Positions 20,945 to 28,838 of a stretch of DNA of 64,000 nucleotides are shown one piece after another. Each line of letters starts with the position of its first letter. The first letter of the stretch is position 1. The translations under genes and the position numbers were made by a program. Origin of the DNA: an uncultured Ignavibacteria bacterium (GTDB lineage: Bacteria > Bacteroidota > Ignavibacteria > SZUA-365); assembly GCA_913061095.1 (NCBI GenBank), contig CAJXVM010000006.1, positions 124,001 through 188,000 on the forward strand. Reading direction: 5' to 3'. The notes below the pieces were generated by a model. It made no database searches, was not told the origin of the DNA, and saw only the letters and a program-made list of their open reading frames with translations.

Positions 20945-21986
20945 CCTGCGCAGTCGCAACAGGGAACGCCGCACCGCGTGGTTCATCGCCGCGGTGATGG
21001 TTGCCGCGCTCCTGTACTTTGCATCACAGGGCGGCATCCTCCGCGACCTCCTGTCAACGGAGGAAGCACCGCCGGAGGAATATGCCGACCGTTCCGCGAT
21101 CACCCGCCGCGCGGTGGAACTGCCGCTGGATTTTCCTGGCTACGAACGAGCACGCATCAGCAGCGCAACCACCGTTCTGCGCGCGAACGCCGTGAACTGG
21201 GTGGTGCTGCGCGTCCCACTCTGGATTCCTTCCCCACGCGGCATCGAGTACAGCAGTTTCGACCTGCGCCGGATCGAACAGGCCGTGCGGCAGCTCAAGG
21301 ATGCGGGATTCGGCGTCTCCATCGCACCGGTGTACTGGGACGGCGACAGCCTGCGGGCCGCGCCCTCCTTTCTTCCGCCGCGCGCGTTTTTCCGTGGATA
21401 CCGTGTCATGCTCCTCGACATGGCAGCCGCCGCCGCGTCCGCCTCGGCCGATGCGCTGCTGCTTGACGGACTCTTCGGTTTCGGCAGTGTCACCGCGGGT
21501 TCCTGGCTGCAGCTGCTCACGGATATCCGCGGCCGCTTCCCGGGCAGCATCGAAGCGCGCATGGACTCCGGTTTCACGCCGCAGCTCTACCTGCGGCATA
21601 TCGATGGCGCACATCTCTCTTCCGATCTCGGACGTGTGACTACGCTTCGGAAGGAGCGCGACGATGCCCGGATCTATCTGCAGCTGCCGTCGAAGGACGA
21701 ATATGCATCTTCGGTGGAAGCGTGGCAGCCGGTGCTCGTCACTGCCGATGACGTGCTGCAGGCTGCAATACAGTTGATATCACAGGAGGAGGATCGTGCG
21801 GAAACGGAAGGTTTTACGCTGACCGGAATGCAGGCATACAGGCAGCTGCTGCGGAAGGACAGTCCGCTCGCGCGCGCGATGAGCAATCGTCGCCAGCGTG
21901 GATTGATCCGTGAACTGAAAAGTCGGCAGCAGGAGCTTCTGCCCGCTGCGCCGACGAATTCAGAGCCGAATGCTCATCGCGAATGA
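20934..21986 (+). CDS. Membrane-anchored putative TIM-barrel protein of unknown function
   Basis: 350 residues from the ATG at 20934, preceded by a GGAGG-like site and overlapping mfd by 11 bases. A short basic N terminus precedes one membrane helix (about 15-32, WFIAAVMVAALLYFASQGG), so the main domain is predicted to be periplasmic. That domain alternates strands and helices in a beta/alpha-barrel pattern (NWVVLRVPLWIP, LKDAGFGVSIAPVYWDG, SADALLLDGLFGFG) reminiscent of GH113-like or related glycosidases, but no convincing pair of catalytic acids stands out. The C terminus is helical and charged. I do not recognise the family. It shares its last 27 bases with the convergent gene. Confidence 0.6.
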   Translation: MQNDLRSRNRERRTAWFIAAVMVAALLYFASQGGILRDLLSTEEAPPEEYADRSAITRRAVELPLDFPGYERARISSATTVLRANAVNWVVLRVPLWIPSPRGIEYSSFDLRRIEQAVRQLKDAGFGVSIAPVYWDGDSLRAAPSFLPPRAFFRGYRVMLLDMAAAAASASADALLLDGLFGFGSVTAGSWLQLLTDIRGRFPGSIEARMDSGFTPQLYLRHIDGAHLSSDLGRVTTLRKERDDARIYLQLPSKDEYASSVEAWQPVLVTADDVLQAAIQLISQEEDRAETEGFTLTGMQAYRQLLRKDSPLARAMSNRRQRGLIRELKSRQQELLPAAPTNSEPNAHRE

Positions 21987-22583
21987 CCACAGGAAATATC
22001 TGCGCACACCCGTTGCCTCGGGGGGCGTTCCATCGGGATTGTAGTAGTACGCACGTGCGCCGCGGTCGAGTTGCACACGATACTGCAGCTCGTAAAACGC
22101 AAATGACGTCACGTACTGCACGCCGAGGTAGAAGAACGATCGCTTGCCGAGCGAATTCATCTCCCGCACATACTTGTATTCCTGATGATCACCGACATCG
22201 GGCAAATCCCGCTCCCAGGTGGGATCGAAACTCCCGCCCGCATTGAGAGAAAACGGGATTGGCGGACGCAGCCGAAGCACAGCATCGATGGTCATTGTCG
22301 GCCAGAGCACACTCACACCCGGACGAAAGATGATGTACCACGAACGGATCGGCTGCGCAAGCATGAGATCCCACGTACCGGTGACACCGGCGGAAATGTC
22401 CGCGCTGGTCTGATGCTGCCGGAAATTGTGCCACAACAGCAGGGGTCCGACGGCGGGACCGGTCTTTATCCAGGATTCGTTCCGAAGGATGTCGGTCGTG
22501 GTGCCGTCCTGCGCGGCAAGCGGCGCTGAGACGAACATCACGAGAAGCATGGTGACTGCCGTGAAGAGGCTGCGCTTTTTCAT
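21960..22583 (-). CDS. Secreted putative outer-membrane beta-barrel protein of unknown function
   Basis: 207 residues with a clear signal peptide (MKKRSLFTAVTMLLVMFVSAPLAAQ). The mature part has alternating hydrophobic and polar residues with many aromatics (YIIFRPGVSVLWPTMTIDAVLRL, FYLGVQYVTSFAFYELQYRVQL) and ends in an aromatic-rich strand ...FAMSIRL, a plausible outer-membrane barrel of 8 to 10 strands. No named family is recognised. The start overlaps the stop of the dehydrogenase-like gene by 4 bases, so it is the last member of the ftsY-mutL-icmF unit. A link to acyl-CoA metabolism is not suggested by the sequence itself. Confidence 0.6.
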   Translation of the reverse strand: MKKRSLFTAVTMLLVMFVSAPLAAQDGTTTDILRNESWIKTGPAVGPLLLWHNFRQHQTSADISAGVTGTWDLMLAQPIRSWYIIFRPGVSVLWPTMTIDAVLRLRPPIPFSLNAGGSFDPTWERDLPDVGDHQEYKYVREMNSLGKRSFFYLGVQYVTSFAFYELQYRVQLDRGARAYYYNPDGTPPEATGVRRYFLWSFAMSIRL

Positions 22584-23290
22584 TCTGACAATGCCATTTT
22601 TTTCAAAAGGGATGCCGGCCGGTAGCGCTCACCGCCGAGTTCTTCGTGCATGGCACGCAGGATCGTATACAGGTTGCGCCAGCCGATGCGATGTCCCCAG
22701 CTGATCGGCCCCCCGCCGGGCAGCGCGACACGCAGAAGTGCATCCATGGATTCCTGCCCCGTGATATCCTGCTGACAGACCAGCACGGCCTCGTTGATCA
22801 TCACCGCCAGCATGCGCGGCGTGACCATACCGACTTCATCACGAACGACCTCCATGCGCTTGCCGATGCCTGCAAAGAAATCCGTGAGGATTTCCTGATG
22901 GCCATGCTTCGCGCCATATGGAAAACAAACCTCCGCGAAATCCGACGTCGTGAGTCCCGGCAGAGCGGCAAAACCGACGATGCGGTCCGCCCCGCCGACA
23001 CGCGCGGTCAGTTCCGTCGCCGTGACCGCAGCCGTGTTACAGAGAACCGGTGCGTCACTGTTGATTTCCGCAAGCACATCGCTGAGAATCAGGCGGCGCT
23101 TCTTCGACGTGCGCACGTGCAGATCGATGACAAGATCAATGTGCGGCGCTTCGTCCAGCGCGTGCACGGTCTGCACCTCTGCGTCGACCGTTTTCTTCAT
23201 GCCCCGGCCATATACGATGCACTCATGCTCCGCGCAGACCTCGAGCCATTCCTTGATCAGTCCGACCGGACCGGTAAAAAGGATTGTCAT
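22580..23290 (-). CDS. 3-hydroxyacyl-CoA dehydrogenase-family protein, catalytically degenerate
   Basis: 236 residues, shorter than the usual 280 or more. The C-terminal half carries the family signature: MLAVMINEAVLVCQQDI, LPGGGPISWGHRIGWRNLY and GGERYRPASLLKKM. Aligned by spacing with human HADH (Ser137, His158, Glu170, Asn208), the corresponding positions here are Ala87 (NTAA), Ala108 (GFAALPG), Glu120 and Pro158 (GMVTPR), so three of four catalytic residues are missing. The N-terminal Rossmann loop reads TGPVGLI and lacks GxGxxG. It is therefore likely a pseudoenzyme that binds acyl-CoA or acts as a partner. It follows icmF by 24 bases and overlaps the next gene by 4, so a role linked to the mutase is plausible but unproven. 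Confidence 0.72.
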   Translation of the reverse strand: MTILFTGPVGLIKEWLEVCAEHECIVYGRGMKKTVDAEVQTVHALDEAPHIDLVIDLHVRTSKKRRLILSDVLAEINSDAPVLCNTAAVTATELTARVGGADRIVGFAALPGLTTSDFAEVCFPYGAKHGHQEILTDFFAGIGKRMEVVRDEVGMVTPRMLAVMINEAVLVCQQDITGQESMDALLRVALPGGGPISWGHRIGWRNLYTILRAMHEELGGERYRPASLLKKMALSE

Positions 23291-23314: not shown

Positions 23315-26300
23315 TTACATACTCCGCCGGTACTGGCCGCCGACTTCGTACAGCGCGCCGGAGATCTGTCCGAGCGAAGCGACCTTCACGCATTCGAGCA
23401 GCTCGTCGAACACGTTGCGATGCTCCTGCGCGGCGTGTTGTACCGCCGCGAGCGCCTCTGATCCACCGCCCTCGTTCCGCTTCTGGAACGCGCGCACGTT
23501 GGCGATCTGCTGCCGCTTTTCATCTTCCGTCGAACGGATCAGCTCGATCGGCTCCTCCTCGCGCCGGCGCAGATGCGCGGGACGAAGGAAGGTATTCACG
23601 CCGACGATGGGCAGGTCACCCGAATGTTTCCTGTGCTCGTACACCATCGACTCTTCCTGGATCTTGCCGCGCTGATACATCGTCTCCATGGCACCCAGCA
23701 CGCCACCGCGGTCGGAAATGCGCCGGAACTCCGCGAGCACGGCCTCCTCGACGAGGTCCGTCAGCTCTTCGATGATGAAGGATCCCTGCAGCGGATTCTC
23801 GTTCTTCGCGAGCCCGAGTTCCTTGTTGATGATCATCTGAATGGCCAGCGCCCGCCGCACGCTTTCCTCGGTCGGCGTAGTGATCGCCTCGTCATACGCG
23901 TTCGTATGCAGCGAGTTGCAGTTGTCGTAAATCGCGTACAGCGCCTGCAGCGTCGTGCGGATGTCATTGAAGTCGATCTCCATCGCATGCAAGCTGCGGC
24001 CGCTGGTCTGGATGTGGTACTTCAGCTTCTGCGAACGGTCGTTGCCGCCGTAAAGACGTTTCATCGCGACGGACCAGATGCGCCGCGCCACGCGTCCGAT
24101 GACGGCGTATTCGGCGTCGATGCCGTTGGAGAAAAAGTACGACAGATTCGGGGCGAACTCGTCGATGTGCATGCCGCGCGAGAGATAGTACTCCACGTAG
24201 GTGAAACCGTTCGCGAGGGTGAAGGCCAGCTGCGTGATGGGATTCGCTCCGGCCTCTGCAATGTGATAGCCGCTGATGGAGACCGAATAGTAGTTGCGCA
24301 CCCTGTTGCGCACGAAGTTCTGCTGAATGTCGCCCATCATGCGCAGGGCGAACTCCGTGGAGAAAATGCAGGTGTTCTGTGCCTGGTCTTCCTTCAGGAT
24401 GTCAGCCTGGACGGTACCGCGCACAACCGACATGCTCTCCGCACGGATGCGTTCGTATTCCTCCCGCGGCAGGATGCCCTTCGCCACGAAGAAATCCCCG
24501 GAAACACCGAGCGTCCCGAGGCCGAAATAGCGATGCACGCCGGCGCCCTTTTCGAACTGCGCGGGGTCGTTGAGTTCGGCGAGCAGTTCAGGTAGCGTCG
24601 GTGCACCGGTATATACAGGGCGCTCCATGTTCACCGCCGCGTATTGTTCGTCGATCGCCTTCTGCGCCTGCTCGAATTTCCCGTTGAGCACCAGCCACCG
24701 CTCCACCTGCTGGTCGATCGCGGTGTTCATGAACATGGCCAATATCATCGGAGCGGGACCGTTGATGGTCATCGACACCGAGGTGTTCGGCGCAGTCAGA
24801 TCGAAGCCGCAGTAGAGCTTCTTCATGTCGTCGAGCGTGCAGATGCTGACGCCCGAGTTGCCGATCTTTCCGTAGATGTCGGGACGCTCGGCCGGATCCT
24901 CGCCGTAAAGCGTGACGGAATCGAACGCGGTTGAGAGACGCGCGGCCGGGAGTCCCTCGGAAACATAGTGGAAGCGCTTGTTCGTCCGCTCCGGTGTACC
25001 CTCGCCCGCAAACATGCGCGTGGGATCTTCTCCCTCGCGCTTGAACGGAAAGACGCCGCCGGTATAGGGAAAACTGCCGGGCACATTTTCCAGGAGTATC
25101 CATCGCAGGATATCTCCGCGGTCGCGGTACTGCGGCAGGGACACGCGCGGGATGCGCGTTCCCGACAGCGACGTGCGCGCGAGCGTGTTGACGATTTCGC
25201 GGTCGCGGACACGCGTGGTCAGCGTATCCCTGGAGTACGCCTCCTTTGCATCCTCCCATTTTTCAAGCAGGTCGCGGTTCTCCGGTGCCACCTTGTCGCG
25301 GAAATAGGTGATCTGCGCATCGAGCACGTCAAGCAGCTCCTGCCGCACTTCCTTCGAACCGATTTCCACCACACCTCCCTCGCCGGAAATCTGCAACTCC
25401 CGCCGTTCGCCGGATTCCACCAGCGAAGCGCGCGCGCCTTCGAGCTGATCCCAGCGTCGCGCGAACTCCGCCTGCTCATCCACCCACTTCTTGTACTCCT
25501 GCAGCGCGTCGGCGATGTCGGAGAGATAGCGTGAACGCTCCGGGGGAATGATCGCGGCCTTGTCGGGCAGGGCATGGTCGCGGCCGAGATCGGTCTGCCA
25601 GTCCACACGGGTTTCTTTCTTCAGCGTCTGCACGATGTGGAAAAACAGGTGATTGGTCCCGGCATCGTTGAACTGACTCGCGATGGTCGGATACACAGGA
25701 ATGTCGTCTTCCTCCGCCTCCCACAGGCCTCGGTTGCGCCGCACCTGCTTACGGATATCACGCAGTGCGTCTTCCGCCCCGCGCTTCTCGTATTTATTCA
25801 GTACGACGATATCGGCCAGGTCGAGCATATCAATCTTCTCGAGCTGCGTCTGCGCCCCGTATTCCGGCGTCATCACGTACATGGACACATCCACCAGGTC
25901 GACGATGGCGGAGTCGCTCTGGCCGATGCCCGCGGTCTCCACGATGACCAGTCCGTATCCGGCGACTTTGCAGAGATCGATTGCGCGGTGCAGCGCCGCC
26001 GAGGTGGCGGTGTTCGCCGCACGCGTGGCGAAGGAGCGCATGAACACACGTTCGTGTCCTTCCGGCGCGGTCGCGGCAATGGCATTCATGCGGATGCGGT
26101 CGCCCAGCAGCGCCCCGCCCGTGCGCCGCTTCGACGGGTCCACAGAGAGAATCGCGATATGCAGGTCGGGAAATTCCCGCAGAAAACGACGCACGATCTC
26201 GTCGGTCAGCGATGACTTTCCTGCTCCACCGGTGCCGGTGATGCCGAGCACGGGAATGATCGTGTCCCCGGAAGGTTCGACTGTCACCTCCTCATGATGT

Positions 26301-26866
26301 TCCAGCGCCGTGAGTGCGCTGGCGAAAAGTCGGCGGTCGGATTTCAGCTCACCGTTCACCTGTGACGCCGGTTTCCCGCTGACAAGCAGTGTACCGTCAC
26401 CGACGGTGAGGCGTTCGTCGTGCCCTGTCTCGTAGTCGCAGGCCTCAAGCACGGTGTTGATCATGCCCTGCAGGCCCATCTGCCGTCCGTCCTCCGGAGA
26501 GAACACGTGATCGATGCCATAGGCGTGCAGTTCGTCGATTTCGTTCTGCACGATCACTCCGCCGCCACCGGCGAAAATCTTGATATGCCCGGCACCGCGC
26601 TGCTCGAGGAGATCCTTCATGTATTTGAGATACTCCATGTGGCCGCCCTGGTACGAGCTGATGGCAATGCCCTGGGCATCCTCGTGCACGGCGGCATCCA
26701 CGATCTCGGCAACGGAACGGTTGTGGCCGAGATGGATGATTTCCGCGCCGCTGGACTGCAGGATGCGGCGCATGATATTGATGCTCGCGTCATGGCCGTC
26801 GAACAGCGAGGCGGCCGTCACGAGACGGATCTTGTTTTTCGGAGTGTAGGCCTGTACGTCTTGCAT
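23315..26866 (-). CDS. icmF: Fused isobutyryl-CoA mutase IcmF (B12 mutase plus G-protein chaperone)
   Basis: 1183 residues from the ATG at 26866; a longer frame would enter mutL. IcmF proteins use coenzyme B12 to rearrange isobutyryl-CoA and n-butyryl-CoA and fuse three parts: an N-terminal B12 domain (about 10-145) with [15 protein letters not shown], where the histidine replaces the lower axial base; a MeaB-like GTPase (about 205-480) with P-loop GTGGAGKSS (211-218), which loads and protects the cofactor; and a substrate barrel (about 560 to the end) with [21 protein letters not shown] and [17 protein letters not shown]. The order B12-GTPase-substrate is diagnostic of IcmF rather than methylmalonyl-CoA mutase. 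Close relatives can also act on pivalyl- or isovaleryl-CoA. It lies 25 bases after mutL and before a degenerate acyl-CoA dehydrogenase-type protein. Confidence 0.95.
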
Positions 26867-26891
26867 GATGGAAATGAAGCGTTGTGAATTG

Positions 26892-28838
26892 TTATCCTGT
26901 TCTTCCAAATCGGCGGTCGAGTTCGTCGAGCGAGAGCTTGACGAGAATCGGGCGTCCGTGGGGACACGCGTACGGATTCGAGGTTGCAAACAACTGATCG
27001 AGCAGCACCTGCATCTCGGGCGGCGCGAGCTTGTCTCCGGCCTTGATGGCCGCGCGGCAGCCGTAGGACGCCGCCACCATGTGGCGTACGTCGGTCACAC
27101 CCGAGGTCTGGTATTCCTTGTACTGTTCGAGCATTTCCTCGAGAATGCTTTCTTCCATGCCCGGACGCACGTCCTGTGGCACGGCCTCGACCGTCACGAA
27201 ATTCGGCGCCTCGAGCCGGAGCACGAAGCCGAGATGTTCGAGCTCTTCACGCAACTCGCTCAGCAGCGCGAAGTCGCCCGGTGATACCCGGAACTCATGC
27301 TCGAACAGCAGCTGCTGCGAGAAGGGCGCGGCTTCCTGAAGGGCGGCAAGGCCCTTCTCGTAGAGGATGCGCTCGTGCGCGACATGCTGATCGATGATCA
27401 TGAGGCCCGACTTGATCGGTGTGAAAAGATACTTGTTATGCAGCTGCCAGAGAAACTGCGTGTCAGACACCGGTTTCTCGCTCGGAAGAATGATGGTCCG
27501 GTCACTGCTGCCATCGCTGTGACCGCCGCCTTCCCCGCCGGCATCCTGCTGCCCGCCGTCCTGTCCCGCATCGATGTTCATCGAGCGGAAGAGGTCGTCG
27601 ATCTGCCGGGCGTCCATACGCGAACCGCTGCCCGGACGCTCATCCATCCCCCTGCTGAGCGAGGAGAAAGAATCATAACGTGGCTCGGCCGGCGCTCCCC
27701 CGGTCTCCTGCCGTCCGGAACGCATGCGATCCGCTCCCGGTTCGCTGAATCCCTGCTCCCCCTGCCCCTCCGGATGCCCGGCGTCGGTGGCCCGCTGCTG
27801 CTCGCGAAATTCCACCGATGGCGTGAGATCGAAATGATACAGGCTGCGCCGTACAACGGCGTTGAGAATGGTGTACATGTTGCGCTCGTTGCTGAACTTG
27901 ACCTCCAGCTTGGAGGGGTGCACGTTGACGTCCACCTGGCGGGGATCGACGTTCAGGAAGAGCATGTACATCGGGAATGCACCCTGGTCGAGCATGTGCT
28001 CGTAGGCACTGACCACCGCGTGATTGAGCAGGCGGCTGACGACATAGCGGCCGTTAACAAAGAGGAACTGCTCGCCGCGGGATTTCTTCGCGAAGGCCGG
28101 ACGCCCGACATACCCGGTGATCGTAATCAGATCGGTTTCCTCCTGCACCGGGAGCAGGGATTCGGCCACACGGTCGCCGTACAGGTAGGAGATGCGACCC
28201 GGAAGATCCGCCGGCATCGCGTCATAAATCGTGCTGCCGTCGGAGATGAAGGTCACGCGCACATGCGGATTCGAGAGCACGAAACGCTGCACCGTATCGG
28301 TGATGTGCCGGTATTCCGTCGCGTTGGATTTGAGAAACTGCCGTCGGGCGGGTGTGTTGTAAAAAAGATTGCGCACGCTGATTGATGTACCGACGGGACC
28401 TTCGGTCTTGTCCGGCGGATCGATGCTTCCTCCTTCGATCCGCAGCAGTGTTGCGACTTCCTGATCCGCTGTGCGTGTGCGCAGCTCGACCTTCGCCACC
28501 GAGGAAATCGATGGCAGCGCTTCGCCGCGAAATCCGAAGGTCATGATGCGCTCGAGATCCTCGAGGCTGCGAATTTTGCTCGTGGCGTGGCGCTCGAATG
28601 CCGTGTGCGCGTCTTCTTCAGTCATCCCGCAGCCATCGTCGATAACCTGGATCAGCGTCTTTCCGGCGTTGCCGATGACGACGGTCACGTGTTCGGCGCC
28701 GGCGTCGATGGCATTCTCCATGAGTTCCTTTACCACGGACTCCGGACGCTGCACGACTTCACCCGCCGCAATCTGATTCGCCAGGTGCTGGGGGAGTTTC
28801 TGAATGGATGTCACGTTATCGCCGGGCATGAAAGTCAC
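26892..28838 (-). CDS. mutL: DNA mismatch repair protein MutL with endonuclease motif
   Basis: 648 residues with a GTG start at 28838 that overlaps the preceding stop by 4 bases; an ATG at 28829 is an alternative. The GHL ATPase domain (about 1-340) shows [47 protein letters not shown] and [14 protein letters not shown] glycine- and aspartate-rich linker (about 360-450) precedes the dimerisation domain, where [12 protein letters not shown] (near 475), [12 protein letters not shown] and ACPHGRPI match the metal-dependent nicking site of methyl-independent MutL proteins. So the organism should use MutL nicking rather than MutH. Part of the ftsY-orf-mutL-icmF unit. Confidence 0.96.

Follow-up and report, generated by a model that had tools for sequence, protein, structure and literature searches.

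An orphaned homologue of the PaaH C-terminal half, probably non-catalytic, encoded behind icmF in an uncultured Ignavibacteria bacterium

PaaH (3-hydroxyadipyl-CoA dehydrogenase) consists of two fused 3-hydroxyacyl-CoA dehydrogenases (HADHs) that mimic a HADH dimer; its second Rossmann domain has neither catalytic residues nor an NAD cleft (PMC4498308). In HADH, His158 and Glu170 (human numbering) are the proton acceptor and anchor, and Asn208 belongs to the active-site stack (PMC10988713). The dimer interface is formed solely by the five-helix C-terminal domain, and the second C-terminal domain of FadB was judged not to be in contact with ligands (PMC6333283). In the human HADH dimer, the two loops between dimerization helices 2 and 3 (DH2-DH3) shape the pantetheine tunnel (PMC5715344). 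The dead half of PaaH was previously known as part of a fusion; it is found here as a separate gene in many Bacteroidota and in phenylacetate (paa) operons of Bacillota. Nothing specific on a split PaaH or on a HADH pseudoenzyme came from the literature searched, and looking for BbsCD as a comparable dehydrogenase with a dead subunit yielded nothing usable.

The window (the whole stretch of DNA analysed, 64,000 nucleotides of contig CAJXVM010000006.1) includes the following genes of one run:

23315..26866, (-) strand: icmF, encoding a fusion of isobutyryl-CoA mutase and GTPase; listed as ORF 23315-26989, with Met42 as the likely start
22580..23290, (-) strand: stand-alone, PaaH-C-like pseudo-HADH, 236 aa; degenerate Rossmann domain ~1-150, five-helix dimerization domain ~155-235
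21960..22583, (-) strand: next gene of the same run, 207 aa, signal-peptide-like N-terminus

For the icmF ORF, listed with its start at TTG 26989, Met42 (26866) is the probable start because relatives encode proteins of 1182-1192 aa. The ATG of the 207-aa gene overlaps the pseudo-HADH stop (ATGA). The 207-aa protein has no family match in Pfam or NCBIfam; a 58% identical copy of it is encoded behind the pseudo-HADH of G001 (genomes are numbered, G000 being that of the window).

The pseudo-HADH has the HADH fold. Its residues 154-233 correspond to Pfam 3HCDH, the C-terminal domain (E 1.9e-9, Pfam profile search), and its model is similar to solved HADHs, in line with the C-terminal HADH signature in the original prediction. 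The NAD-binding domain 3HCDH_N is sub-threshold (13.8 bits versus a Pfam cut-off of 22). With 14 homologues as input, AlphaFold2 gave a model with a mean pLDDT of 91.3 and a pTM of 0.88. Comparison with solved HADHs gives a Foldseek probability of 1.00; TM-scores by query length are mostly 0.75-0.82 (0.82 for human HADH, 1F0Y). Matches to PaaH fall in its second half, both in NCBIfam models (PRK08268 397-497, TIGR02279 395-497) and in the PDB (E. coli PaaH 3MOG, residues 373-469).

Catalytic positions were read from an alignment of 38 sequences (24 pseudo-sequences and 14 active homologues). Ala87, Ala108, Glu120 and Pro158 occupy the columns of human Ser137, His158, Glu170 and Asn208, exactly as had been proposed. 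The codons that carry the replacements, placed by this alignment, are:

23030..23032, (-) strand: Ala87, replaces the catalytic Ser
22964..22969, (-) strand: Ala108-Ala109; Ala108 replaces the catalytic His
22814..22819, (-) strand: Pro158-Arg159; Pro replaces the catalytic Asn

Ser and His are found in 14/14 active homologues and Asn in 13/14 (Thr in G000_C1); none of the three occurs in any of the 24 pseudo-sequences. Among catalytic Ser, His, Glu and Asn, only Glu (Glu120) is kept by the pseudo-HADH. Arg159 is invariant in the pseudo-sequences (24/24), and position 198 is Trp in all of them and Leu in 14/14 active ones. The NAD-binding loop (MTILFTGPVGLI) is reduced from GxGxxG to a single Gly (G7); the earlier reading of a lost motif in the N-terminal loop agrees with this and with the sub-threshold 3HCDH_N score. 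Sequencing or assembly error and chance were considered as sources of the missing residues and are ruled out, because the losses are common to 24 related sequences.

Ser, His, Asn and GxGxxG are gone clade-wide, yet the gene is under purifying selection. This supports, at the level of sequence, a non-catalytic HADH-fold protein, as the original prediction had it. It is very improbable that the protein is an active enzyme using the same cleft for new chemistry via Glu120, Lys144, Asp151 and Arg159: the four residues are invariant in alignment A1, but Asp151 and Arg159 are near-invariant in active HADHs too and are therefore probably structural, GxGxxG is lost, and all proton-shuttle residues except Glu are lost.

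The 24 pseudo-sequences, including PaaH-C (the C-terminal half of PaaH) of E. coli and Pseudomonas, share one side of a 100/100 branch of a maximum-likelihood tree; PaaH-N (the active half) and HBD are on the other. The order inside the pseudo clade is unreliable because the PaaH-C rows are long-branched. HADHs encoded beside pseudo-HADHs group with E. coli PaaH-N (100/100). On the evidence of tree and profile matches, the pseudo-HADH is a stand-alone homologue of the degenerate C-terminal half of PaaH, not a one-off dead enzyme. The residues were already lost in the ancestor shared with that half, and not for a role with IcmF.

Relatives with an active PaaH-N show the context of the pair. In Thermoactinomyces mirandus (L070) and Kroppenstedtia guangzhouensis (L071), paaA-paaB-paaC-(paaD)-paaK are followed by PaaH-N, pseudo-HADH, PaaJ and a PaaZ-like gene: PaaH is split into two genes within the phenylacetate operon. 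G016 encodes PaaF-like and PaaG-like proteins, HADH, pseudo-HADH and, further on, a thiolase of the 3-oxoadipyl-CoA type. The order is PaaG-like crotonase, icmF, HADH, pseudo-HADH in G012 and icmF, HADH, pseudo-HADH in G005; HADH and pseudo-HADH are adjacent in G018, G044 and G053. Linkage to PaaH-N was found in all of these genomes. PaaA and PaaC are absent from G018, G044 and G053, which keep the HADH pair; the pair is therefore not used only with the phenylacetate ring epoxidase. A third PaaH architecture, an active HADH with an extra C-terminal dimerization domain alone, without a second Rossmann domain (~390-425 aa), was seen in G032 (L063 5414-6595(-)), G021, G031, G040, G041 and G049.

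Eight genomes (G000-G004, G006, G008, G009) carry the pseudo-HADH as an orphan; the gene is open in all of them (62-79% identity). It lies directly behind icmF, except in G008, where a DUF169 gene is found between the two, and in G009, where the contig ends. The ORF in the G008 gap was examined as a possible decayed HADH and rejected, DUF169 being unrelated. PaaH-N was not found in the window genome nor in 7 close relatives, and homologues of PaaA and PaaC, present in G005 and G012, are absent from 8/8 orphan genomes; the genomes are mostly metagenome-assembled (completeness 87% for G002, 74% for G012). Besides the pseudo-HADH, just two 3HCDH proteins are encoded in the window genome, and neither belongs to the PaaH-N clade; within the family only G005 has PaaH-N, every other HADH falling outside that clade. 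In the orphans, the active half and the ring epoxidase are therefore gone and the dead half remains.

Selection on the orphan gene has been maintained. Pairwise dN/dS (Nei-Gojobori; approximate because dS is high) is 0.08-0.20 for the pseudo-HADH versus 0.05-0.12 for icmF and 0.14 for mutL. Among 7 orphans, identity averages 71% and 75% in the Rossmann halves, 81% in the C-terminal domain and 87% over the segment spanning helices 3 to 5; the dimerization domain is the best conserved part. This substitution pattern, close to that of icmF and mutL, disfavours the view that the gene is a functionless relic, decaying after the loss of its phenylacetate operon, as do the reading frame, open in every orphan, and the conservation of the C-terminal domain. 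The relic reading, to which the loss of catalytic partner and ring epoxidase, the degenerate tunnel loop and the loss of the pseudo-HADH gene in G010 would be favourable, is considered improbable.

The tunnel loop has the following position:

22709..22723, (-) strand: codons 190-194, loop that connects dimerization helices 2 and 3, placed by model and alignment

The flanking helices of the model are H179-189 and H195-202; DH2 and DH3 were assigned to them by helix order, not by superposition. The loop reads ALPGGGP: the G-x-N-Y-P motif is degenerate and one residue shorter than in other pseudo-HADHs. The same is found in 8/8 orphans, whereas the other 16 pseudo-sequences have G-x-N-[YFH]-P or a close variant. 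Mean identity of residues 190-194 is 45% among 7 orphans. The losses of partner, paa genes and loop lie on one tree branch and therefore count as a single event. The proposal that the protein binds acyl-CoA and holds butyryl-CoA is weakened, the motif of the loop that shapes the pantetheine tunnel in human HADH (PMC5715344) being lost in exactly the partner-less lineage. Simple holding of butyryl-CoA appears less likely because the loop expected to touch the CoA arm is degenerate.

The upstream neighbour is a genuine icmF, as indicated by NF045497 (1764 bits versus a cut-off of 1500) and by its best PDB match, 4XC6. When aligned to 4XC6, the protein has the B12 and GTPase motifs and a Phe/Gln pair, which we take to be the substrate residues of Icm type. 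Its stop lies 24 nt before the pseudo-HADH start, with a GAGGAG ribosome site between. The pseudo-HADH gene, with the same residues lost, is kept near icmF in 9/10 order-level genomes that hold it, and in the tenth the gene lies at a contig end; the expected conservation beside icmF was thus found. Within the family this adjacency is weak evidence because the ftsY, mutL and mfd flanks are also syntenic; the neighbourhood in G012, where the flanks differ, is better evidence. G010, a close relative, has a full icmF without pseudo-HADH, so that the gene is not present wherever icmF occurs. A decayed copy was looked for downstream of G010 icmF; none was found, the gene there encoding an FkbM-type methyltransferase.

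Several observations on icmF stand apart. IcmF is encoded by two genes in G048 (L060 4823-6865(-) and 8246-9658(-)) and also in G030, G039 and G057: a B12-binding and MeaB-type GTPase protein of 470 aa and a separate mutase of 680 aa; in G048 the two genes are separated by one for a DUF4397 protein. In G003, an in-frame TAG splits icmF (L034 8599-12150) into two ORFs (511 and 670 aa), the gene being either misassembled or truly broken. Window IcmF has ~60-70 residues (~776-842) where C. metallidurans IcmF (4XC6) has none.

The pseudo-HADH could now be a dedicated accessory subunit of IcmF (scaffold, regulator or assembly factor); this reading is tentative. It would account for a gene in the same run, with its own ribosome site 24 nt behind icmF, found beside icmF in two families whose outer flanks differ (that of G012 and that of the window), which stayed when the HADH partner and the paa genes went and was remodelled in exactly the lineage without the partner. 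It is opposed by the full icmF of G010, by the structure of C. metallidurans IcmF (4XC6), solved without such a subunit, and by family-wide synteny (ftsY, mutL, mfd), which makes adjacency cheap. The extra IcmF segment was considered as a docking site and rejected: it is also present in G010 and therefore does not track the pseudo-HADH gene, which counts against an IcmF subunit. The literature searched describes no HADH-like partner for IcmF. The fuller scenario, in which a dead phenylacetate-dehydrogenase half left after loss of pathway and active half was recruited as an accessory or regulatory subunit of IcmF, is rather doubtful.

The five-helix bundle, sole maker of HADH dimers (PMC6333283), is intact and best conserved. 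This would equally suit a mixed dimer formed in trans with the housekeeping 3-hydroxybutyryl-CoA dehydrogenase (C28:18458-19306), whose gene lies with thiolase and acyl-CoA dehydrogenase genes; the pseudo-HADH could then modulate the step that handles IcmF-made butyryl-CoA. Such a dimer is possible rather than probable, since the loop meant to complete the pantetheine tunnel of the partner is degenerate; moreover, that dehydrogenase occurs in the relatives G010 and G011, which lack the pseudo-HADH gene, and therefore does not need it. The present partner is about as likely to be IcmF as to be the housekeeping HADH; a homodimer is possible.

The following history is proposed. The ancestral pseudo-HADH would have been the dead half of a HADH pseudo-dimer, as suggested by fused PaaH and by the gene pairs. 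Its five-helix C-terminal bundle would have docked onto the bundle of the active PaaH-N subunit and, by homology to human HADH, its helix-2/helix-3 loop would have been lent to the pantetheine tunnel of PaaH-N. The view that the second C-terminal domain of FadB does not touch ligands (PMC6333283) counts against this last step. In an ancestor of the window's order, the PaaH-N/pseudo-HADH pair would have become positioned behind icmF. Within the family of the window, PaaH-N and the ring epoxidase of the phenylacetate pathway then disappeared, and the dead half stayed behind icmF under selection, with its dimerization bundle kept and its tunnel-loop motif lost. The protein may now work through this bundle as a protein-protein adaptor or regulatory subunit; a present-day role as protein-binding subunit fits best. 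Taken together, the pseudo-HADH is probably a PaaH-C orphan, formerly half of a pseudo-dimer, that outlived partner and pathway behind icmF and now serves as a protein-binding adaptor or regulator. The original interpretation is thereby kept for a non-catalytic protein conserved near icmF, and loses ground for acyl-CoA holding.

Being encoded by a separate gene, the dead half can be expressed, removed and mixed independently; split PaaH thus makes testable what a catalytically dead HADH half gives its partner. The orphan lineage is a natural experiment: selection outlasts partner and pathway, the tunnel loop is lost and the dimerization surface is kept. Binding of the pseudo-HADH to IcmF, if it does occur today, would clearly exemplify a pseudoenzyme that has changed clients.

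Among known systems, the closest is the C-terminal half of PaaH (3MOG; TIGR02279/PRK08268). Both belong to the same clade, have lost Ser/His/Asn and the NAD motif, and share the five-helix dimerization domain, Trp198, the RYR(P) signature and the absence of a C-terminal GKKxGxG tail. Unlike that half, the pseudo-HADH is a separate gene and not part of a fusion, its Rossmann part is less reduced (~150 residues versus 79 in 3MOG), its G-x-N-Y-P loop is degenerate and the active half is missing from the genome. Hbd (4KUE, 9FBD) and human HADH (1F0Y) share its overall fold (TM-score by query length ~0.8); unlike them, it has neither the catalytic and NAD-binding residues nor the helical insert between the Rossmann halves. 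Unlike IcmF accessory factors, it resembles neither MeaB-type G-proteins nor adenosyltransferases. In domain E/HAD-C2 of MFE1 and FadB-type enzymes, as here, a second non-catalytic HADH dimerization domain replaces the second subunit of the dimer (PMC10988713, PMC6333283); those domains lie at the C-terminus of a single polypeptide that has no second Rossmann domain, whereas the pseudo-HADH is free-standing.
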